Shown here: positions 27,798-37,298 of the stretch, one piece after another
Position numbering within the stretch: position 1 is the first letter of the stretch
How the letters are laid out: the number at the start of each line of letters is the position of its first letter
Origin: Microbacterium sp. MYb54
GTDB lineage: Bacteria; Actinomycetota; Actinomycetes; Actinomycetales; Microbacteriaceae
Direction of reading: 5' to 3'
Assembly (NCBI RefSeq): GCF_002979515.1
Contig: NZ_PCPA01000008.1
Coordinates: forward strand, 1-64,000
DNA: 64,000 bases
Notes under the pieces: generated by a model
The model's input: the letters and a program-made list of their open reading frames with translations, nothing else
Told to the model about the DNA's origin: nothing
Database searches by the model: none
Program-made: the position numbers and the translations under genes

Positions 27798-29546
27798 CTA
27801 CCGGGCGCTGCCGTAGTACGCGACCCCGGGGAACGCGACCCCGTCGCCGTTGCCGTTCCAGACACCGGTGAAGGTGATCACGACCGTCTGACCGGAGGCC
27901 AGCGGCCCCTTCCAGTCGATGCTGTTGCCGTCGACCGTCGCGTTGCCGCTGGTGGCGGTGACACTGGACGGGTTCCACGAGGAGTCGTCCAGGATGCCGG
28001 CGAGGTTGTACGCGATCTCGCTGTTCGCCGAGTCGACGTTGCCGTTGTTGGCGAACTCCATCCGGTACGTCACCGTCTCGCCCGGCTTCGGGTCGGTCGG
28101 GCTCGAGTTGAACGTGTACTGGAAGAACTCCCGCTTGACGGTGTCAGTGTCGGTGTCGCACGCCTTCGACGCGTTCGTCCCGACGACACAGGCCTCGTTG
28201 GTCAGGGGGCCGGGAGGAGCCGACTGGTTGACCTTGGCGTTGACCTTCAGCGTGACCGACTGCCCAGGAGCAAGGTTGCCCAGGGTGGCGGTCACGTTGC
28301 GACCGGCAGAGGTCACCGTGGTTCCCGCCGGACCGCTGCCGGAGACGAAGTCGAGACCGGCCGGAAGCGGATCGCTGACCACGACGCCCTGCGCCTGACC
28401 ATCGCCGGTGTTCTTCACGATGATGTTGTAGGTCAGAGCCTGACCGAGCGCAACCTCACCGAGGCTGTCGTCCTTGTCGATCGTCAGAATCGGCGTGGTG
28501 GGCTTGTTCACCGTGGTGTCGTCCCAGTCGCACGCCTTGCTCGACGAGGTCGCCACGCAGGCGTTGTTGCGCACGTTGCCGACCGGAGTCGACGTGCCGA
28601 CCGTGGCCTTTACCGTGAGCGTCGCCGAAGCGCCGGGGGCGAGGGAGGCGATGGTGCCCTCGACATGCTGTCCGTTGATCGCGACCTGGCCGGCGGTGCC
28701 GGCCGTGTACGCAGCCGAGATCCCGGTCAGACCGGCGGGCAGATCGTCGCTGATGACCACATTGCTGGCCGCACCGTTTCCGGTGTTCTTCACGACGATG
28801 TCGTAGGAGAGCTGGTCGCCGATGAGCGCCGCATCGCGGTGATCGTTCTTGTCGATCGTCAGGACCGGCTTGGTGGGCGGCTTGGGCTTGTCCACGTCGA
28901 TGTCGATGCTGTGCAGGTCGCTGGGCACCTTGGTCCAGAGGGGGATGATCCCGCCGAACGCGCCCTTGGAGAGCATGGTGACCTGGAACTCGACCTTCGA
29001 GACCGTGCCGTTGACCTGGACGGTGCCGTTCTTCGCACCGAGGTCGTTCGAGGTGATCGTGCTCCCGGTGACGTCGAGATTCCCGCCGACCGAGCTCAGG
29101 CTCACCCCGGGAGTCTTCAGCGTGTACTTCGCGGAGCTGCGGACGATTCCACCGATCGAGTAGACGTCGCCTCCCAGGTTGCCGAGCTTGATCTTCGGGT
29201 TCGTCACCTGCTGGCCGAAGTCGACGACCACGGTGCCGCGGACGCACTCCGTGCCGTTCTTGCAGGGGAAGCCCTCGTTGAGTCCGATGATGTTCAGGCC
29301 GAGCTCGCCGCCGTTGCGGACGGTGGCGAGGTTGACCGCGTCGCCGGAACTCTTGATCTGCATCTTGTCGGTGGCGGTGATGGTGGCTGTGGCACCGTCG
29401 GCAGACGCGGTACGGGTGTCTCCGGTACCGGTCCAGCCGTTGATGTCGACCGCGTTGGCAGCAGGGGCGGCTACAAGGGCACCGACCGCGAGGGCGGCGA
29501 GCGCCCCCGCGGTCAGCGCACCCCTGAGCAGGGATTTCTTCTTCAT
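27798..29546 (-). CDS. Secreted DUF11-repeat protein without anchor
   Basis: 582-residue exported protein. The signal peptide runs MKKKSLLRGALTAGALAALA to PAANAVDI. Residues about 35-270 form a beta-rich N-terminal domain. Two well-kept DUF11-type repeats follow (LTIDKNDHRDAALIGDQLSY and LTIDKDDSLGEVALGQALTY), then a related C-terminal module ending GVAYYGSAR. There is no LAxTG tail or membrane span, so retention at the surface would need a partner. It follows the 217-residue gene by 34 bp, apparently from the same ECF-type promoter. The paired cysteines (NACVATSSSKACDWDD; EACVVGTNASKACDTD) suggest disulfides in each repeat. Confidence 0.82.
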   Translation of the reverse strand: MKKKSLLRGALTAGALAALAVGALVAAPAANAVDINGWTGTGDTRTASADGATATITATDKMQIKSSGDAVNLATVRNGGELGLNIIGLNEGFPCKNGTECVRGTVVVDFGQQVTNPKIKLGNLGGDVYSIGGIVRSSAKYTLKTPGVSLSSVGGNLDVTGSTITSNDLGAKNGTVQVNGTVSKVEFQVTMLSKGAFGGIIPLWTKVPSDLHSIDIDVDKPKPPTKPVLTIDKNDHRDAALIGDQLSYDIVVKNTGNGAASNVVISDDLPAGLTGISAAYTAGTAGQVAINGQHVEGTIASLAPGASATLTVKATVGTSTPVGNVRNNACVATSSSKACDWDDTTVNKPTTPILTIDKDDSLGEVALGQALTYNIIVKNTGDGQAQGVVVSDPLPAGLDFVSGSGPAGTTVTSAGRNVTATLGNLAPGQSVTLKVNAKVNQSAPPGPLTNEACVVGTNASKACDTDTDTVKREFFQYTFNSSPTDPKPGETVTYRMEFANNGNVDSANSEIAYNLAGILDDSSWNPSSVTATSGNATVDGNSIDWKGPLASGQTVVITFTGVWNGNGDGVAFPGVAYYGSAR

Positions 29547-29580
29547 GTGAGCTGTCTTCCTCTCTCGGAGACGATGCCGG

Positions 29581-30234
29581 TCAGCTGACGGTCGACTGGC
29601 GACGACGCAGCACGATCGCACCGGCAGCGCCGGCCGCGAGCACACCGGCGCCGACGAGCCCGATGGCAGGATCGATCAGCGGCACGGCGGGACGCTCGGC
29701 GAACTGGTGGTTGTAGGTGTAGGTGAAGCGGGGATCGTCGGTGAACACGCCGCCGGTGTAGAGCACCTGAGCGCTGTTCTCGATGTGCGGGCCCCAGTAG
29801 TCCTTGGCGACCTGGAAGGTCGCCAGCGGCTTCTCGATCCGGGTACCGCCGTCATGAGTGACGTTGAAGGTCCACACCACGTTGCTGCCGACGAGCACGC
29901 CTCCCGAGTTCGCCGAGACGAAGCTCGTGTGCGCGGGTACGGGAAGGATCACCTTGTACACGCCATCGATCTGCTCGTCGTTGACGAGCTGCACGACAGC
30001 GCCTTCGCTGATCTGCGATTCCGGCGTCACGCCCTGGGCGGCCGTCTGGGTGGCCCGACCGAGGTACCCGCGAACCTGCGGCGGAGTCCCCTCTGTCCCG
30101 GTCGTGGTGGTCGTGGTGGTGTCCGGCGTGACCGGCTGCTCGGCAGCGAAAGCCGCCTGGCCGCCGAGTACCGTTCCTCCCGCGATCAGCAGGCCGATCC
30201 CGGTTGCGCATGCGGACTTGAGGATCTTGTTCAT
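29581..30234 (-). CDS. Secreted protein with C-terminal membrane tail, candidate exosortase substrate
   Basis: 217-residue protein with signal peptide (MNKILKSACATGIGLLIAGG, cleavage near FAAEQ), a Thr-rich linker (TPDTTTTTTTGTEGTPP), a beta-rich domain of about 130 residues and a C-terminal tail VPLIDPAIGLVGAGVLAAG followed by AIVLRRRQ. This tripartite tail (short motif, hydrophobic span, Arg cluster) resembles exosortase/sortase sorting signals but lacks LPxTG. It is the first gene after the exosortase-like gene and has its own ECF-type promoter. A substrate role is inference from this adjacency. Confidence 0.75.
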   Translation of the reverse strand: MNKILKSACATGIGLLIAGGTVLGGQAAFAAEQPVTPDTTTTTTTGTEGTPPQVRGYLGRATQTAAQGVTPESQISEGAVVQLVNDEQIDGVYKVILPVPAHTSFVSANSGGVLVGSNVVWTFNVTHDGGTRIEKPLATFQVAKDYWGPHIENSAQVLYTGGVFTDDPRFTYTYNHQFAERPAVPLIDPAIGLVGAGVLAAGAAGAIVLRRRQSTVS

Positions 30235-30283
30235 CCTGTGCCCCTTTCATCATTGGTGACGGCGAGCAGACTGCTGCGCCGCC

Positions 30284-30313
30284 AACTAGACGGAGGAACC
30301 TGCGTTTGGTTAC
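30284..30313 (-). promoter_or_regulatory. ECF-type promoter P1
   Basis: On the leftward strand GTAACC (30308-30313), 15 bases and CGTCTAGTT (30284-30292) form a -35/-10 pair typical of ECF sigma factors (AAC...CGTC). It lies 50 bp upstream of the 217-residue gene and overlaps the exosortase-like stop codon. Two other copies precede surface-protein genes at 35818 and 39282. Confidence 0.6.
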
Positions 30314-30933
30314 GCCCGCCCGCGACGGGAATAGCGCCGGTTCGGATCCCGCCGGAAAAGGCGCAGGTCGGCGATCACGACGACGAAGACCAGGTAGGCA
30401 GCACTGAATCCGACGATGCTCAGCACCGAGCCGAGCAGCCGATGGGTGAGCTCATACCCCACTTCGAAGCCCAGCGCCTGGGATCCGAGCGCGATCACGC
30501 CCAGTCGCAGCTGGTTGGTGACGAAGATCAACGCCGTGGAGAAGAACAGCGCCTTGCCGACCTGGGCCCAGCCGACGCGGGTCGTGGCGAGGATCACGCC
30601 GCTCAGCGCCAGCACGGGGGCGGTGAGGAACGCGATGGTGCACTCGATCGTCACCATGAACGCGATGGTCCTCCCCGGTTCCACCTCGAGGATGAAGTAG
30701 TTCAGATAGTGACGCACTCCCCCCGGCACGAACGGGGCGAGCCAGTAGCTGGCGACTCCTGCTTCGAGGATGCGGAACCGTTCTTCGAACAGCACGAGCA
30801 ACACGGCCGCGACCACCAGGGCGATCCCGACGGTGATGCGGGCGCCCGCATGGACCGGACCGAAACGAGGGCGGTCGCGCTGTGCCGGCTCGTCGACTGT
30901 CGTCGTCCGGGAGAGGGTGAGTGTCGACATCAT
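30310..30933 (-). CDS. Exosortase/archaeosortase family protein
   Basis: 207-residue integral membrane protein with about six spans. It carries the family's presumed catalytic triad: C98 in VTIECTIAFLTAPVL, R143 in VTNQLRLGVIAL and H164 in ELTHRLLGSVLSI. Exosortases are membrane transpeptidase-like enzymes that process C-terminal sorting tails (PEP-CTERM and relatives) and usually lie next to glycosyltransferases. Here the start overlaps the GT2 gene (ATGA at 30930-30933). A second ATG three bases later is equally possible. It may belong to the actinobacterial exosortase lineage, but the exact subtype cannot be fixed by eye. Confidence 0.8.
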   Translation of the reverse strand: MMSTLTLSRTTTVDEPAQRDRPRFGPVHAGARITVGIALVVAAVLLVLFEERFRILEAGVASYWLAPFVPGGVRHYLNYFILEVEPGRTIAFMVTIECTIAFLTAPVLALSGVILATTRVGWAQVGKALFFSTALIFVTNQLRLGVIALGSQALGFEVGYELTHRLLGSVLSIVGFSAAYLVFVVVIADLRLFRRDPNRRYSRRGRA

Positions 30934-32276
30934 GCATCCTTCGCGATCGGGCCCGCCACGTTGATCTCGCCGTTGCGGCGGGTCTTCGCCCACCCGTTGC
31001 GGCCGCGCAGGATCCGGTAGATGGCGCGGGCGCCCGTCAGGTACACGTAGTAGTCGTAGAGCCACATGCCGAAACCCCAGAGCACCCCTGTCCAGAAACC
31101 GGCCTGCGGCTCGCTGTAACGACGGTAAAGGGGTCCCCAGATGAAGAACGGGCCGATTCCGAACAGCAGGTAGAAGACGGCGAGGAGCAGCACCGAGCTC
31201 AGGGGCAGGGTGACCGCCCCGGAGAGGAGGCCGACGGCGGCTCCGATCACCAGGAGCACGGCCGCGAGGCTCGCGACGACCTGGAACAAGGGCAGCATGA
31301 GGTAGTAGCAGACCTCGAGCACGCCGGCGTTGGTGAGCATCGTCGATCGGGCGATCTCCGGGATGTACCGGATGCACTGCATGTTCCCCTGCGCCCAACG
31401 GGTGCGTTGGACCGTGAACCGACGAAAGTCGTGCAGAGCCTCCTGAGCGACATACGTGTCATGCAGGTGGCGATTCTTGTGCCCGGCGAGAAGCACATGG
31501 ATGCCCAGCTCGTAGTCCTCCAGAAGCGATCCGTGCCAGGGGCGATCCGAACGCGCGGCGATGTCGTCCAAGACGGAGAGTCGCGTGAACTGACCGTTGC
31601 CGCCGAGCCCGACGGTCTGCGTCCAGCCACGAAGCGACTGGACTGCCGCGATCGGTCCACGGAACTCGAGGTCCTGCATCCTGATGAGGAATCGCCCGAA
31701 CGTGTTCCGGGCCCACCCCGCTCCCTCGACAGGGTGCCGGTCATCCCGGTTCTTCATGAACACCGTGACCTGGGCAGCACCCACCTCCGGGTCTCCGAAT
31801 GCGTTCGGCGATGCGGCCTGGCGGAGGATGTTCTCGGCCACCTCACCGTCGGCGTCGACGACGCAGACGACGACGCTCGAGCGATCGGTGTCGTCGGGGA
31901 GGAACGCGTTCAACTCGAAGTACGCGGCGTTGAGCGCATCTCCCTTGCCCGTTCTGGCATCGGGGCGTCTGCGCTGCACGAGGTGCACGTACGGGTCCGC
32001 ATCGGCGGCGGACTGCACGATCGCGGCGGTCCCGTCGTCGCTGTCGTCGTCGATCACCCAGACGTGTGCTTCCGGGACGGTGGTGCGGAGCATCCGGATG
32101 GTTCGTCCGATCACGACCTCCTCATCTCGGCACGGCACGAACATGTGCCATTCGAACGCGTCGACCGGGCCCTCGGGGTCCGGTGTGCGGCGCAGGAACG
32201 GGACCACGATCAGGAACACGTAGACGAGGAACGTCAGCGTGACGAGGAACGATATCGCGTTAGCGGCTGCGATCAC
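30930..32276 (-). CDS. Processive-type family 2 glycosyltransferase
   Basis: 448-residue membrane glycosyltransferase. After one N-terminal span (AISFLVTLTFLVYVFLIVVP) the GT-A domain shows VWVIDDDSDDGT, VCVVDADGEV, LLEDYELG and QRTRWAQGN. These are the D, DxD, (E)D and QxxRW motifs of processive enzymes such as cellulose, chitin or hyaluronan synthases. Three to four spans follow, ending with FWTGVLWGFGMWLYDYYVYL. The GTG start has a GAGG ribosome site and overlaps the small gene before it. With the epimerase gene it could build or transfer a ManNAc/GlcNAc-type glycan onto exported proteins; sugar and acceptor are inferred. Confidence 0.88.
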   Translation of the reverse strand: MIAAANAISFLVTLTFLVYVFLIVVPFLRRTPDPEGPVDAFEWHMFVPCRDEEVVIGRTIRMLRTTVPEAHVWVIDDDSDDGTAAIVQSAADADPYVHLVQRRRPDARTGKGDALNAAYFELNAFLPDDTDRSSVVVCVVDADGEVAENILRQAASPNAFGDPEVGAAQVTVFMKNRDDRHPVEGAGWARNTFGRFLIRMQDLEFRGPIAAVQSLRGWTQTVGLGGNGQFTRLSVLDDIAARSDRPWHGSLLEDYELGIHVLLAGHKNRHLHDTYVAQEALHDFRRFTVQRTRWAQGNMQCIRYIPEIARSTMLTNAGVLEVCYYLMLPLFQVVASLAAVLLVIGAAVGLLSGAVTLPLSSVLLLAVFYLLFGIGPFFIWGPLYRRYSEPQAGFWTGVLWGFGMWLYDYYVYLTGARAIYRILRGRNGWAKTRRNGEINVAGPIAKDA

Positions 32277-32457
32277 GGCGACCTCGGGGGACGGGAGCAG
32301 GGGCTGCCTGACGAAGCAGCCGCCGACGCCAGGTGAGGAAAGCCCCGGCCCCCATCGCGGCTGCGGCGATGATGACCCAGGTGATCATCGAGTCGGGCCC
32401 GGTCATCGCGAGCATGCCGACGACGGCGAGCGGGGTGGAGACCTCGGTGCTGTACAT
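32260..32457 (-). CDS. 65-residue protein with LAMTG sorting-signal-like core
   Basis: Tiny membrane protein: N-terminal MYSTEVSTPLAVVGM, LAMTG at residues 16-20, a span (MITWVIIAAAAMGAGAFLTW) and a basic WRRRLLRQ stop-transfer cluster, then a Pro/Arg-rich tail. That order is exactly a sortase-type tail with almost no cargo, and there is no separate signal peptide. The start overlaps the epimerase stop (ATGA at 32457) and the stop lies 17 bases inside the glycosyltransferase gene, so translation is tightly coupled on both sides, which argues that it is a real gene. Function unknown; an accessory or decoy for the sorting enzyme is possible. Confidence 0.65.
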   Translation of the reverse strand: MYSTEVSTPLAVVGMLAMTGPDSMITWVIIAAAAMGAGAFLTWRRRLLRQAAPAPVPRGRRDRSR

Positions 32458-33605
32458 CAGCGCCCCTCGACCACGAGAGCGCCGACGACGGACTCGATGT
32501 GCGCGGCGATGCGTTCGGTGGCGTGGCCGTCGCCGAACGGGGATGGCAGTGTCGAAAGGCGCGCGAGAGTCTGCTCGACAGAAGAGAGCAGGGCTGCTGC
32601 CTCCGTCGAGAGCGTCTGCGGGGTGACGAGCTTGGTGAAGGAACCCAACGCTTCCGGGCGCTCCGTCGAGTCCCGCACGACGAGGACCGGGCGGCCGAGG
32701 ACCGTGGCCTCCTCCTGGATGCCCCCGGAGTCGGAGACCAGCACGGCGGCGTGCGCGGCGAGGGCGAGGAACCTCTCGTACGGCAACGGCTCTTCGGCGA
32801 TCAGGGCATCGAGGAGGTGTTCCGCATCGAGCGTGGCCAGCATCGCCCTGGTCCGCGGGTGCACCGGGAAGACGACCGGCCACCCGGATGCTGCGATCTC
32901 GTTGAACGCGTGCAGTGTGGCCAGCAGGTTCTCGGGGGAGTCCACGTTCTCCTGCCGATGCAGGGTCGCGAGAACGTACCGAGCGGGATAGAGGCGGAGA
33001 CGGACGAGTTCGTCGCCATCGGCGTGAGCGGCGGCCCGCTGCGCGCGAACGGCTTCGACCACGGGGTTGCCCGTGACGAGGATGCGCTCCTCGTCGATGC
33101 CTTCCGCGAGGAGATTGGCTCGATTCGTCTCGGTTGCGGCGAACAGGTCGTCCGAGATGTGATCGACCATCACCCGGTTGTGCTCCTCCGGCATGCGCCG
33201 ATCACGCGCCCGCAGGCCCGCTTCGACATGGCCGAGACGGACACCGGCGGCGTTCGCGGCGAGAGCGGCGGCGAACGTGGCATTCGTGTCGCCCTGGACG
33301 ACGACGTACTTCGGCTCGACCTGCGTGATCGCCTCGGCGATCTGCTCGGCCCCACGCCCGATCTGCGCTGCCCGCGGAAGACCGCCGACGTGGAGCTGGC
33401 GGTGGACGCGTTCGATCCCGCACGACTTGAGGAACACCCCTGACATGGCGCGGTCGTAGTGCTGACCGGTGTGGACGACGTAGGCGGCATCGCCGAGGCG
33501 ACGCACCAGAGGTGCGAGTTTGACGATCTCGGGGCGAGTACCGAACACGATCATCACCGAGGATTTCGGCAATTCGACGGCTCCGGACGGTGTGGAGAAC
33601 TTCAT
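32457..33605 (-). CDS. wecB: UDP-N-acetylglucosamine 2-epimerase (non-hydrolysing)
   Basis: 382-residue cytoplasmic enzyme that interconverts UDP-GlcNAc and UDP-ManNAc, the donor for teichoic linkage units, capsules and glycoprotein sugars. Family motifs are VMIVFGTRPEIVKLAPLVRR, VHTGQHYD, VVVQGDTNATFAAALAA, LGHVEAGLRARDRRMPEEHN and SDSGGIQEEATVLGRPVLV. Length is typical. It lies 58 bp after a surface-protein gene, separated by a GC-rich hairpin. It is followed at once by the mini-protein and GT2 genes, implying a dedicated UDP-ManNAc supply for the glycosyltransferase. Confidence 0.93.
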   Translation of the reverse strand: MKFSTPSGAVELPKSSVMIVFGTRPEIVKLAPLVRRLGDAAYVVHTGQHYDRAMSGVFLKSCGIERVHRQLHVGGLPRAAQIGRGAEQIAEAITQVEPKYVVVQGDTNATFAAALAANAAGVRLGHVEAGLRARDRRMPEEHNRVMVDHISDDLFAATETNRANLLAEGIDEERILVTGNPVVEAVRAQRAAAHADGDELVRLRLYPARYVLATLHRQENVDSPENLLATLHAFNEIAASGWPVVFPVHPRTRAMLATLDAEHLLDALIAEEPLPYERFLALAAHAAVLVSDSGGIQEEATVLGRPVLVVRDSTERPEALGSFTKLVTPQTLSTEAAALLSSVEQTLARLSTLPSPFGDGHATERIAAHIESVVGALVVEGR

Positions 33606-33624
33606 TTTGGGTACCTCGATCAGC

Positions 33625-33647
33625 CCCCGGGGGAGAATCCCCCGGGG
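33625..33647 (-). terminator. Intercistronic GC hairpin before wecB
   Basis: CCCCGGGGG, loop AGAAT, CCCCCGGGG makes a perfect 9-bp stem between the LAQTG surface-protein gene and wecB. It probably lowers readthrough so the structural protein is made in excess over the enzymes. Confidence 0.6.
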
Positions 33648-33663
33648 CCGATGTGCTCAGTGA

Positions 33664-35754
33664 TTAGCGGTTGGACTTGCGACGGGCGCCGACGACGATG
33701 AGGAATGCCCCACCGGCGAGAAGGATGACCGCGGGGATGGCGAGAGCGAACGTCGCCCCGGTCTGAGCCAGCCCCGCAGGCGCGGGAGCGGTGAGAGTGG
33801 TCACGGCGCACGACCAGGTCTCATCCCCCTCGCAGGCGTTCGCCGCGGTGAGCGGCGGCAGCGCCGGCAGGTCGGACAGGTTCTCCGGGAACGTGATTCC
33901 GGCCTGCGCCGCAGCGCCGCGCAGAGCGTCGATCATGGTCTGGTCGTAGGCGACCGTCGCACGGTTGACGACCTTCGCCTTCGCGTCGGCGGGCACCTGG
34001 GCCCGCATCGTCATGGTGACCGTCTGCCCTGGCAGGATCTCCTGGACCACCCAGCCGACACGGTCCTTCACGGCGACACCACCGGTCGATGCGGCGATGA
34101 ACCTCGCCCCATCCGGCAGATCGTCCACCACCGGAATCTGCACCGCGGTGCCGGGGCCGGTGTTGGCCACAGTGATGGTGTAGTCGAGAATCGCTCCGAC
34201 CTGGGCTGTCGACTGCTTCACCGTCTTGCTGATCTCCAGTGACGCGAGCGCCGGGATGACCGTCATCGCGCAGGCCTGCTGAGCACTGTCGGGGCACGGC
34301 GTGAGCACGGTCGGGTCCGGTGTTCCGGCCGGCACGCCGGTCGGGTTCTGCACGCTCGCGCGGTTCAACAGCTGCGCTTCTTCGAGACCGCCGGGCGTGG
34401 TGCTGGTCACGTGCAGCTCGACCTCGCCCCCGGCAGGAACCTCGGGGACTGTCCACTTCACGGATCCGTCGGCGACCACACCGCCCTGATCTGCGGATAC
34501 CGCTTTCAGCCCCGCGGGCAGCTGGTCGACGACCGGCACCCCGGCGGCTGCGGCCGTGCCGGAGTTGGCGACGACCACTGTGTATGTGAGCACCTCACCG
34601 TGTCCGGCGATCTGCTTGTCGACGAGCTTCGACACCGACAATGCGGGGAATGCGGCGACGACCGTGGTGGCGCAGGCAGCGGCCGGATCGTCTGAGCACG
34701 GGGTCGCATAGACCGGGGCAGGGGTGTCGGTCGGGGCATCAGCGGGGTTCTTCGCGACCACACGGTTCACGAGAGTCGTGCCGGCGCCGGCGCGATCGAC
34801 GACGCCGGTCACGTGCAGCTGGCTCTGACCGCCGGCGGGGATGCTGTCGATGACCCACGACACCGTCGAGTTCTCGATCTTTCCCCCGCGGTCGGCGGCG
34901 GGGGCGTCCAGACCGACCGGGAGCACGTCGGTGACCGGCACCTGACGCGCATCGGCCCGCCCGGTGTTCTTCACGGTGATGGTGTAGTCGAGCTTGTCGC
35001 CAGGCACAGCGGCAGCCTTGTCCACGACCTTCGACACCGACAGTCCAGGGAAGGTGGGGTCGGGCGTCGCCGTCGCGGTCACCCCGAAGGCGTAGCCGTC
35101 CAGGTTGCCCGTCTGGCCAGGGCTCAGCGAGAAGCGGGCGACGTCGAACACGACCTTGGTGATCTTCGTTCCGGGCACCGTGAAGCTCCCGCACCCACCC
35201 GGCCGGTCGGCCGCAGCGCAGTTGATCGCGGCGTCGCCTCGGAAGTATCCGTCTCCGCCGTCGGTGAAGGTCGCTCCTGCAGAGACGGTGGCTTCGGTGG
35301 CTCCCCCATCGGCCGAGGCGAAGCGGATCCCATCGGCCACAGACCACCCGCTGATGCCGCTGCCTGCTCCGAACTCGGCGATGTGGATCGCAGGGTTGTC
35401 CACCGGGCGGTCGAAGACGATCGTGATCTGACCCTCACCGCATCGGTTCGCCGTGCCGCAGTTCTGCGAGGACAGCATGGTCAAGACCGGGAGATCCTTG
35501 GCGGAGACTCCGTCGGCGTACATGGCGTCCCGCCCGCTCCAGTCGCTGAGCGACTTCCCGTCTCCGCTGAACGTGCGGGCTCCACCGCCGGAGATCGTCA
35601 CCGTCGCGATGGTGCCGTCGGCGAGAGCGAACGTGCCGGTCTTGGCGTCCGTGACGGTCGCGGAACCTGCGGCGAGGGCGGGGGCGGCAGTCGCGGCCAC
35701 TGCGCCCATCGCGAGCAGGATTCCGAGCATGAACGTGCCCGTTCGTTTCAACAT
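33664..35754 (-). CDS. LAxTG-anchored surface protein with three DUF11-type repeats
   Basis: 696-residue protein. The signal peptide runs MLKRTGTFMLGILLAMGAVA to PALAAGSA. A beta-rich N-terminal domain (residues about 30-235) carries cysteine pairs (QNCGTANRCGEG; INCAAADRPGGCG). Three DUF11-type domains each start LSVSKVVDK, LSVSKLVDK or LEISKTVKQ. The C terminus is LAQTG at residue 662, a membrane span and RRKSNR. It would be exported and covalently anchored by a class E-type sortase, or by the exosortase-like enzyme encoded three genes downstream. The gene is preceded by an ECF-type promoter and lies next to the sigma/anti-sigma fusion gene. Confidence 0.85.
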   Translation of the reverse strand: MLKRTGTFMLGILLAMGAVAATAAPALAAGSATVTDAKTGTFALADGTIATVTISGGGARTFSGDGKSLSDWSGRDAMYADGVSAKDLPVLTMLSSQNCGTANRCGEGQITIVFDRPVDNPAIHIAEFGAGSGISGWSVADGIRFASADGGATEATVSAGATFTDGGDGYFRGDAAINCAAADRPGGCGSFTVPGTKITKVVFDVARFSLSPGQTGNLDGYAFGVTATATPDPTFPGLSVSKVVDKAAAVPGDKLDYTITVKNTGRADARQVPVTDVLPVGLDAPAADRGGKIENSTVSWVIDSIPAGGQSQLHVTGVVDRAGAGTTLVNRVVAKNPADAPTDTPAPVYATPCSDDPAAACATTVVAAFPALSVSKLVDKQIAGHGEVLTYTVVVANSGTAAAAGVPVVDQLPAGLKAVSADQGGVVADGSVKWTVPEVPAGGEVELHVTSTTPGGLEEAQLLNRASVQNPTGVPAGTPDPTVLTPCPDSAQQACAMTVIPALASLEISKTVKQSTAQVGAILDYTITVANTGPGTAVQIPVVDDLPDGARFIAASTGGVAVKDRVGWVVQEILPGQTVTMTMRAQVPADAKAKVVNRATVAYDQTMIDALRGAAAQAGITFPENLSDLPALPPLTAANACEGDETWSCAVTTLTAPAPAGLAQTGATFALAIPAVILLAGGAFLIVVGARRKSNR

Positions 35755-35817
35755 GGCGATTTGGTTCCTATCTCAAGTGCCTGGTCGTCCGTGAGCACCT
35801 CGAGGGTGCCGGACGCG

Positions 35818-35847
35818 TACTGGACGGCGAATGCCGCCGCGCATTAC
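35818..35847 (-). promoter_or_regulatory. ECF-type promoter P3
   Basis: GTAATG (35842-35847), 15 bases and CGTCCAGTA (35818-35826) on the leftward strand repeat the arrangement of P1 and P2. It lies 64 bp upstream of the LAQTG surface-protein start and immediately after the sigma-fusion stop codon. Confidence 0.5.
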
Positions 35848-35861
35848 GCGAGGGGAGGAAA

Positions 35862-37298
35862 TCAATCCACGATGACCACCTCCGCCGAGGCGGTGCCCGA
35901 GATTCCGGCGATATTGGATTGCACGAAGCTCACGCTGATCGCCGTTCCCGACGGCACCGGATAGGAGCTGACATCAACGCTCGCCTGCCACACGGAATCG
36001 CTCGCACACGTACCGGCGGCGATGGTGACGCCGTAGACCGTGACGGTCAGATCGGCGCCGACCTCGCATCTCACGGAGGCCGAGATCCACTCGGTCCGCG
36101 AGACCTGGGCGGGAATGCTGATGATCACGGGCGCGGCGGGAACTCTACTCGGGGGCGGCGGCGGCGGAGCCACGGGGCTCTGAGGCTGTTCGGGGGCGGC
36201 CGAGGTGACGGGCGCCTGTTCGGGGGGACTCGCCGCGGGCGGCGGCGCAAGGGTGGGGTCGGTTTCAGGGATCAAGGTCGGAAGAGGACTCGATGCCGGC
36301 GTCCTCTGGCGCAGATCCACCTCGGCTGCCGAGGTGGCCTCGACCATGGGCGCATTGTTCACGACCGTGGTCGAGACCCCGACGGCGAGTGTGGTCGCGG
36401 CGGCGACGGAGAGCATGATCACGCCCGCCTTGGCACTGGCGAGGCCGGCGACAGGTACCGTGACCGCGGTCGGCATCACGGCCGCGTTCGCCGATGATCC
36501 TGCGGAGGCGAGAAGCTCCCACCCCTGCGCGCCGGCACCGAACGCGATGCCGGCGGGGATCAGGACCGAGAGCATCCGTGAACTGGCCTGTCGCGCCTCA
36601 TCTGCTTTGGCGAGGCAGTCCGTGCACTGTTCGAGATGCGCCTGAACCCGTTCGGAGTCGCGGGACGTGAGGCGACGACGAGCGTGTGCACCGAGCTTGC
36701 CGAGTGTCCACCGGCATTCCTTGGATGCGGGAGGCCTCGATGCGAGGTGGGCGACGATCCACGCCTGCCGGAGTCCCTCCCTGGCACGAAATGCGAGCAC
36801 CGCCGCCGCACGTTCGGTGATCTCGAGACGATTCCCGATCTCCTGCATGGAGAGGTTCTCGATCTCGGCGAACCAGAGCACCTCCTGCCAACGGTCCGGG
36901 AGAGCGAGGATCGCGGTCGACACGAGGGACGCGTCGAAGTCGGCATCGGCGGCGGCTTCGGTCGAGGCGGGGTCCTCGACCGCTTCGATGTGCTCGATGG
37001 GGATCTCGCGGCGGGAGCGCCCCCAGCTGATCGCCAGATTCCGCATCGTGGCGAAGAGATAGGGCTTGAATGCACTCGTCGGGCCCTTCCCCGCCTTGAT
37101 CGCCTGGTAGATCCGAGTGAAGGATTCGGCGACGAGATCGTCGGGATCGGCCGACCACCAATAAGTGCGAGCGACAGCTCCGGCGATCTGGGAGTAGCGC
37201 TGCCAGAGTTCGGCGTAGGCCCGCTGGTCGCCGGTTCGTGTGCGGGCCAGGAGATCGGCGTCCTGGTCCTGCTCGACGTCTGCTCGTTCGTGATTCAT
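35862..37298 (-). CDS. ECF sigma factor fused to anti-sigma zinc finger and extracellular domain
   Basis: 478-residue single-chain protein. Residues about 15-90 are sigma-70 region 2 (DPDDLVAESFTRIYQAIKAG; KPYLFATMRNLAISWGRSRR) and about 125-180 region 4 (LPDRWQEVLWFAEIENLSMQ). A zinc-binding anti-sigma segment follows with C195, H221, C225 and C228 (HLEQCTDC). A membrane span lies near 291-313, then a Pro-rich stretch and an Ig-like C-terminal domain about 395-478, predicted outside the cell. Such a fusion would hold the sigma factor at the membrane until a signal, perhaps proteolysis, frees it. The start at 37298 is preceded by GAAGGGG. Neighbouring surface genes carry ECF-type promoters. 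Confidence 0.88.
   Translation of the reverse strand: MNHERADVEQDQDADLLARTRTGDQRAYAELWQRYSQIAGAVARTYWWSADPDDLVAESFTRIYQAIKAGKGPTSAFKPYLFATMRNLAISWGRSRREIPIEHIEAVEDPASTEAAADADFDASLVSTAILALPDRWQEVLWFAEIENLSMQEIGNRLEITERAAAVLAFRAREGLRQAWIVAHLASRPPASKECRWTLGKLGAHARRRLTSRDSERVQAHLEQCTDCLAKADEARQASSRMLSVLIPAGIAFGAGAQGWELLASAGSSANAAVMPTAVTVPVAGLASAKAGVIMLSVAAATTLAVGVSTTVVNNAPMVEATSAAEVDLRQRTPASSPLPTLIPETDPTLAPPPAASPPEQAPVTSAAPEQPQSPVAPPPPPPSRVPAAPVIISIPAQVSRTEWISASVRCEVGADLTVTVYGVTIAAGTCASDSVWQASVDVSSYPVPSGTAISVSFVQSNIAGISGTASAEVVIVD

Follow-up and report, generated by a model that had tools for sequence, protein, structure and literature searches.

Exosortase systems of the type considered here are already modelled in NCBIfam 20.0, which holds the XrtP, XrtR and XrtS enzymes, an XrtP-associated glycosyltransferase, PVV-CTERM, CoaP-CTERM and LAXTG_small_WW. 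Among the papers covered by our literature search, none was dedicated to XrtP/R/S enzymes of actinobacteria. To our knowledge, the acceptor of Gram-positive exosortase substrates and the reason for the GT2 partner are open questions. According to the available text of PMC6381275, the GspA-LcpA-SrtA system of Actinomyces oris places a glycopolymer on a sortase-anchored protein. The island in the window (the whole 64-kb stretch of DNA analysed) adds a family of small LAxTG proteins, MINI, that occurs in two contexts: in an exosortase cassette or beside another GT2 synthase. These two contexts hint at a mechanism by which glycans could be attached to the cell wall.

The locus, its exosortase and its proteins with sortase-type tails

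All genes named in the initial annotation were found in place on the minus strand. WecB (32457..33605), MINI (32260..32457), GT (30930..32276) and XRT (30310..30933) form a near-overlapping run with XRT as the last gene. MINI shares 1 bp with WecB and 17 bp with GT. XRT ends at 30310 and has alternative starts at 30933 or 30930, giving 207 or 206 residues. The flanking genes were likewise as annotated, except that the 615-residue reading frame has a better start at 29546, yielding D582 (27798..29546), a secreted 582-residue DUF11 protein without a membrane tail. SIG (35862..37298), an ECF sigma factor with a zinc-finger anti-sigma domain, is 68-69% identical in loci L082 and L083 and is likely a local regulator. 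Genes outside the window were called with a purpose-made gene caller.

XRT scored 25.0 bits against the exosortase/archaeosortase model TIGR04178 (cut-off 23) in an NCBIfam HMM search, and its ortholog in L082 reached 35.7 bits. Its scores lay below every subtype cut-off (XrtS, 84 against 145; XrtR, 58 against 150; XrtP, 55 against 200), and Pfam Exosortase_EpsH (PF09721) matched neither XRT nor any other protein of the genome. The annotated triad C98/R143/H164 is correct in the 207-residue numbering (C97/R142/H163 in the 206-residue form). These residues, which we take to be the catalytic ones of exosortases, were invariant in 12/12 and then in 42/42 aligned sequences, the window's XRT included. 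The AlphaFold2 model of XRT had a pLDDT of 89 and a pTM of 0.81; a fold search of the PDB with it returned nothing at E<=0.001, and a sequence search for a related solved chain gave a single chance-level match (E 0.24). Judged from its sequence, XRT is a divergent exosortase.

A protein with a C-terminal tail, as expected near an exosortase, follows XRT. This is T217 (29581..30234), a secreted protein with the tail AVPLIDPAIG, a TM segment and RRR. T217 also follows XRT in L082, L083 and L100. It reached the cut-off of no NCBIfam or Pfam family, was not matched by PVV-CTERM (NF051874) at E<=1, and its structure model, with a pLDDT of 41.9, was too poor to use. VP[LVI]-type tails occur at many other XRT loci: the automatic count was 43/63 XRT loci of the gene-call set, and about 38 by eye, since the sole tail matches of L084, L128, L142, L154 and L161 look wrong. 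T217 is the likely substrate of XRT, as its tail and position suggest.

Two further surface proteins carry sortase-type tails. D696 (33664..35754), a DUF11 protein ending in LAQTG, scored 14.8 bits against TIGR01167, under the cut-off of 15.9. P603 (37418..39229), with Collagen_bind and DUF5979 domains and an LATTG tail, scored 17.8 bits in one search, above that cut-off, and 14.1 in another, below it. The Pfam Sortase search found no canonical sortase within the window, as annotated, and one match genome-wide, on contig C2. The proposal that the island is "self-contained" is therefore not supported. Sortase presence was uninformative as a discriminating test, because 29/30 related genomes were positive; the exception is a 66% complete MAG.

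The probable glycan genes and the mini-protein

GT is a membrane GT2 glycosyltransferase with a QRTRW motif, and it matched NF053846 (XrtP-associated glycosyltransferase) with 681.6 bits (cut-off 520). WecB, a UDP-GlcNAc 2-epimerase, scored 296.8 bits against TIGR00236 (cut-off 210.15). The annotated coupling of an exosortase to a GT2 enzyme and WecB thus held, and it recurs in Microbacteriaceae and beyond. In a sample collected by XRT first (24 matches, 20 regions taken, with our own locus and three 21-24-bit matches left out), GT lay in the same region at 17/17 loci whose XRT scored 40 bits or more, which is more than chance. L203-L205 (XRT 22-29 bits, no GT) fall outside these 17; L194 and L197 come from one genome, L189 repeats L138 and L190 repeats L101. 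The GT-XRT pairing is further supported by the distance correlation across 27 loci (0.88 for GT-XRT versus 0.61 for GT-WecB) and by L092, L094 and L100, where GT and XRT were replaced together while WecB, MINI, T217 and D582 stayed orthologous.

Three Microbacterium loci (L084-L086) carry a decayed XRT, with a 19-residue deletion, Cys changed to Ser and His to Leu. These loci probably represent one loss lineage. They have lost MINI and T217 and kept GT and WecB; D696, D582 and P603 are missing as well. The refuting outcomes named in the initial annotation did not arise: XRT exceeds the cut-off of an exosortase HMM, and where XRT has decayed or is absent in close relatives, the tailed gene is gone as well. 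Among 80 loci, 12/13 of those without XRT had GT and WecB without XRT and MINI, so the glycan does not need XRT or MINI. No GT was called in L050, and 2/22 family GT loci left out of the gene-call set (L208, L209) were read later; they have GT, with XRT and MINI absent.

The 65-residue MINI has the LAMTG motif, one TM segment and a basic tail, with no separate signal peptide seen by inspection, and scored 21.8 bits against TIGR01167 (LPXTG_anchor; cut-off 15.9). Purifying selection is indicated by non-synonymous/synonymous ratios per site of 0.07-0.25 across four homologue groups. From this sequence record, MINI is a real gene, as annotated, and belongs to a conserved family with the pattern MY...LAxTG, TM segment, basic tail (alignment A3). 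LAXTG_small_WW (NF058583) did not match it at E<=1, and the L083 ortholog scored 18.9 bits (cut-off 65). In the sets that we examined, position 2 is Tyr or, in rare cases, Ser, and both residues carry a hydroxyl group; because the assigned starts had been cut back to Met/Val/Leu-Tyr or MSG, the count is biased toward Tyr.

Among the candidates scored in 298 Microbacteriaceae genomes, full-length MINI matches occurred in 12/12 XRT genomes and 2/286 others; at most 22 first-look candidates were scored per genome here, and at most 19 in the class scan, so MINIs can be missed. The majority of MINIs from the 12 XRT genomes are in alignment A3, so their recovery is in-sample; the rarity of MINI elsewhere, G171, G040 and most class-scan matches are not. 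Fisher values take no account of relatedness. In the two XRT-less genomes, MINI adjoins a different GT2 synthase. Both contexts recurred in the class-wide scan (14 genomes, 11 regions taken, with our own, G768 and G474 left out; L213 is from the same genome as L118). The initial annotation had missed that relatives of MINI adjoin other GT2 synthases with no exosortase nearby. MINI is neither a universal partner of XRT, being absent at 10/17 XRT-first loci (L193-L202), nor strictly bound to it.

A model and its alternatives

The model that we prefer, with our confidence evenly balanced, is that XRT sorts T217, that an amino-sugar glycan is the product of GT and WecB, and that MINI, anchored by sortase, partners the synthase and perhaps ties the glycan to the wall. 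WecB would supply UDP-ManNAc, according to its family function, and GT would make the glycan from this or a derived sugar. XRT would cut the VPLIDP-type tail of T217 and transfer the protein to an acceptor that is most likely a product of GT, given the fixed GT-XRT pairing and the analogy with other exosortases. MINI may serve the GT2 synthase as a dedicated partner. With a short N-terminus that lies outside and ends in LAxTG, it would presumably be linked to peptidoglycan by the genome's sortase, and it could anchor or prime the glycan. D696 and P603 would be sortase substrates of the ordinary kind, passed on together with the island. In support of this model we counted the family matches and invariant residues of XRT, the GT-XRT pairing, the losses that accompany XRT decay in L084-L086, the VP[LVI]-type tails at other XRT loci, the distribution of MINI over its two contexts, and the sortase of this genome and of 29/30 related ones. 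Of the earlier proposal of an actinobacterial pathway sorting local substrates, T217 is supported and D696 is not. We counted against the whole model the XRT-first loci without MINI, the GT and WecB genes without XRT or MINI, the MINI types without LAxTG, the failure of XRT to reach the subtype cut-offs and PF09721, and the probable origin of the L084-L086 loss in a single lineage.

IcaD/PgaD-type proteins are small partners of GT2 synthases. MINI could similarly act as a small subunit, activating or steering the synthase, with LAxTG serving only for turnover or being incidental, a reading we consider doubtful. It would fit the position of MINI beside several types of GT2 gene, whether XRT is there or not, and often at 2-24 bp (L221, L223, L225 and L227 repeat L217, L215, L219 and L218). 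It would also fit the loss of LAxTG in three MINI types; two related types (L097/L032; L088) are without the motif although their genomes encode sortase, and so are L228-L230. However, LAxTG or LPxTG was kept in 51/54 non-redundant MINIs in the XRT context and in 12/13 in the other-GT2 context, counting one LAxSG (the near-repeats L189, L190 and L213, and L220 with an unclear start, were left out), beyond the need of a structural subunit. Other lineages, moreover, keep GT with WecB without MINI.

There is also a bolder claim, which we think unlikely. MINI would typify a class of wall-anchored glycan acceptors: a GT2 polymer would sit on its outside N-terminal peptide, which includes the hydroxyl-bearing position 2, and sortase would then link the LAxT end to peptidoglycan. 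Where an exosortase takes part, this glycan or peptide would in addition receive the surface protein that the exosortase has cut. If true, a polysaccharide would be fixed to the wall by a protein micro-anchor, and two sorting systems would converge on one peptide of about 20 residues.

That MINI is instead an adaptor or second substrate of XRT, cut at its LAxTG-like motif by XRT and not by sortase, seems quite improbable. MINI accompanies XRT in all 12 XRT genomes of the family, disappears where XRT decays, and shares one 233-residue frame with XRT in L216, but L216 belongs to a MAG of 68% completeness and could result from misassembly. MINI also stands beside other GT2 types without XRT (L206, L207, L215, L217-L219), and many XRT loci lack MINI. 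The original proposal that XRT sorts the DUF11 proteins is very improbable and was rejected: D696, D582 and P603 are absent together with XRT activity in L084-L086, but D696 and P603 end in LAxTG sortase signals, D582 is tail-less, and the genome encodes a sortase along with 22 LPXTG-type tails above the cut-off, most of them outside the island.

The locus is a compact system in which loss and swap variants exist naturally. MINI is small enough for mass spectrometry to reveal its cargo, and the exosortase-free GT2-MINI pair makes its role testable separately from XRT.

Comparison with described systems

The PEP-CTERM/EpsH system ties an exosortase to polysaccharide genes and C-terminal tails, as in the window. 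The setting of PMC1569441 is environmental bacteria with PEP-CTERM; the window has no PEP motif or PF09721 match. GspA-LcpA-SrtA offers a precedent for a wall-anchored glycan acceptor; it uses an LCP enzyme and a larger protein, and the available text of PMC6381275 mentions no exosortase or GT2 partner. The XrtR system (NF012138; L043, L045) shares MINI, XRT and GT, with WecB nearby; XRT reaches 58 of the required 150 bits, however, and both loci have an adjoining acyltransferase gene. The XrtP system of Lentzea, with CoaP-CTERM, the NF053846 glycosyltransferase and LAXTG_small_WW, has five parts in common with the window, whose GT exceeds the NF053846 cut-off. The gene order in Lentzea is divergent, XRT scores 55 bits against 200, and MINI has no LAXTG_small_WW match at E<=1. 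XrtS, found with PVV-CTERM choice-of-anchor G proteins (NF033767, NF051874, NF033766), is the best subtype match of XRT, albeit at 84 bits against 145, and the PVV-CTERM and choice-of-anchor models both fail to match T217. The order tailed protein, MINI, GT, XRT in L031 is nevertheless that of the window. Within the XrtP/R/S kind of exosortase cassette, this actinobacterial locus appears to be a new variant.

Cassette layout and the exosortase

The window comes from contig C44 of a 4.25 Mb genome; the closest named locus among the best 80 of the GT scan is that of Microbacterium maritypicum MF109 (GT identity 95%). The cassette is transcribed from the minus strand in the order P603 (surface protein), SIG (ECF sigma factor), D696 (DUF11 protein), WecB (UDP-GlcNAc 2-epimerase), MINI (65 residues, LAMTG motif), GT (membrane GT2 glycosyltransferase), XRT (divergent exosortase), T217 (secreted tailed protein), and D582 (DUF11 protein). 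WecB and MINI overlap by 1 bp, MINI and GT by 17 bp, and GT and XRT by 1 or 4 bp. SIG (window:35862-37298) is a fusion of the sigma factor with a zinc-finger anti-sigma domain, and a relative of 39% identity occurs close to the XRT locus in L037 (L037:3774-4817). D582 (window:27798-29546) has a YYGSAR end conserved among Microbacterium relatives and no anchoring tail.

XRT scored 25.0 bits against TIGR04178 (cut-off 23) and remained below the subtype cut-offs of XrtS (84 bits; 145), XrtR (58; 150), and XrtP (55; 200), while Pfam PF09721 gave no match. Cys, Arg, and His were invariant in alignments of 12 and of 42 XRT sequences. The AlphaFold2 model (pLDDT 89, pTM 0.81) yielded long helices and a strand region immediately preceding the Cys; a fold search of this model against the PDB returned nothing at E<=0.001. 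The window GT belongs to the NF053846 'XrtP-associated glycosyltransferase' family, and relatives fall into named kinds: XrtS with PVV-CTERM (L031, L106), XrtR (L043, L045), XrtP with CoaP-CTERM (L146), and LAXTG_small_WW (L157). A subtype cut-off was passed by two of ten further XRTs examined (L106, L146). This kind of system is therefore already known to annotators, and much of its diversity, including the window member, sits below the subtype cut-offs. A literature search, with most subscription papers outside its reach, found no paper devoted to these actinobacterial exosortases. In the XrtS locus L031 (L031:4987-7559), XRT is followed by a lipoprotein-like gene with a septum-formation domain and by one for a WsfD glycan transferase.

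Co-occurrence and exchange of the genes

The best 80 named loci of the GT scan were read by six-frame profiles. XRT was present in 67, and MINI exceeded 25 bits in 60 of these; weak MINIs in L097 and L131 (curated set) raised the count to 62/67. XRT-bearing loci without MINI were L084-L086, L095, and L116, the last at a contig end. MINI occurred in one of the 13 loci without XRT (L130), and the MINI–XRT association had a Fisher p of ~1e-9, relatedness ignored. Starting from XRT, 23 of 297 genomes of the order had a match, and 20 regions were read. XRT reached at least 40 bits in 17, accompanied by GT (17/17), WecB (15/17), and MINI (7/17). The ten without MINI were L193-L202; L193 encodes a choice-of-anchor P protein. 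L193-L201 are XRT-GT-tailed protein-WecB loci, often with an extra protein of ~300 residues adjoining XRT and ending in a WxxAExxL-type stretch. L203, L204, and L205 gave weak XRT-profile matches (22-29 bits) with no GT in the region; a conserved 179-residue protein with a C-terminal membrane tail adjoins each match.

Distance correlations over 27 loci were 0.88 for GT-XRT, 0.61 for GT-WecB, 0.66 for XRT-WecB, and 0.54 for XRT-MINI, with lower Spearman values (0.58, 0.35, 0.40, and 0.19, respectively). Compared with the window, the Microbacterium loci L092, L094, and L100 retained similar WecB (83-87%), MINI (56-68%), T217 (68-71%), and D582 (77-79%), but GT was only 55% and XRT 33-37% identical. 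In L100 the replacement pair occupies the position of the original one, and in L092 and L094 it follows D582. GT and XRT thus travel together, and sequence shows them to be a conserved pair.

The 17-kb Microbacterium loci L084-L086 keep GT (87-88%) and WecB (85-86%), but a deletion of 19 residues precedes the active site of their XRT, in which Ser replaces Cys and Leu replaces His. MINI, T217, D582, SIG, and P603 had no match there, and the sole match of D696 covered 63 residues (38%, L086). Decay of XRT thus went with loss of MINI and T217. L087, also from Microbacterium, lacks XRT, the next gene starting directly after GT, and has no MINI ahead of GT. In Microbacterium, sequence shows a tailed protein and MINI accompanying the GT-XRT pair.

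MINI beside other GT2 synthases

XRT was found in 12 of 298 Microbacteriaceae genomes. MINI matches (E<1e-9, from model position 1) comprised those 12, within ~2 kb of XRT, plus G171 and G040. No XRT was found in these two genomes; their MINI adjoins a QRLRW-bearing GT2 whose TIGR03937 scores, 60 and 84 bits, fall far short of the cut-off of 422. In a class scan, MINI matched 14/345 genomes, and 11 regions were read: six held MINI, XRT, and GT (L210-L214, L216), four lacked XRT and had MINI 2-24 bp from a QRLRW-type GT2 (L215, L217-L219), and in L220 a MINI-like ORF precedes another GT2. L206, L207, L215, L217, L218, and L219 share a second operon type: a gene for a MINI-like protein lies 2-24 bp after that of a QRLRW GT2, and the region lacks an exosortase. 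The QRLRW GT2 as query, itself picked for having MINI, matched 45/394 genomes; a MINI-like ORF adjoined it in 15 of the 30 loci returned, including the ten most similar, and was absent in the other 15. L038 has a weak MINI-like protein ~2.3 kb from GT and no XRT. Sequence shows relatives of MINI beside other GT2 enzymes. In L216 (L216:6614-7315), a 68% complete MAG, MINI and XRT form a single 233-residue frame; in the related L212 (L212:4898-5609) they are separate adjacent genes.

Among 69 non-redundant MINI sequences (54 from XRT context, 13 beside other GT2, two more), position 2 was Tyr in 51/54, 13/13, and 2/2, respectively, with Ser in the other 3/54; the choice of start inflates the Tyr count. 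LAxTG/LPxTG was present in 51/54 XRT-context sequences and in 12/13 beside other GT2, one LAxSG counted in. The final 20 residues are basic.

Tails and proposed roles

By inspection, the start of T217 resembles a signal peptide; the protein has no NCBIfam or Pfam match above cut-off and carries the tail AVPLIDPAIG-TM-RRR. Tails in other XRT loci include GVPVVNQ, VPLINP, SPIVAP, WPILDP, IPLVNT, VPLASG, and IPMASG. T217 may be processed by XRT, and GT and WecB would make a ManNAc-type glycan. Sortase-type tails end D696 (LAQTG) and P603 (LATTG), D582 having none; the genome encodes one sortase and 22 LPXTG-type tails over cut-off. LAXTG is reported to be the motif of class E sortases (PMC5148588) and is named among sortase motifs (PMC13251363). 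MINI could be anchored by sortase and might carry or anchor the glycan. A precedent for this proposed role is GspA of Actinomyces oris, which is anchored by sortase and carries a glycopolymer (PMC6381275).
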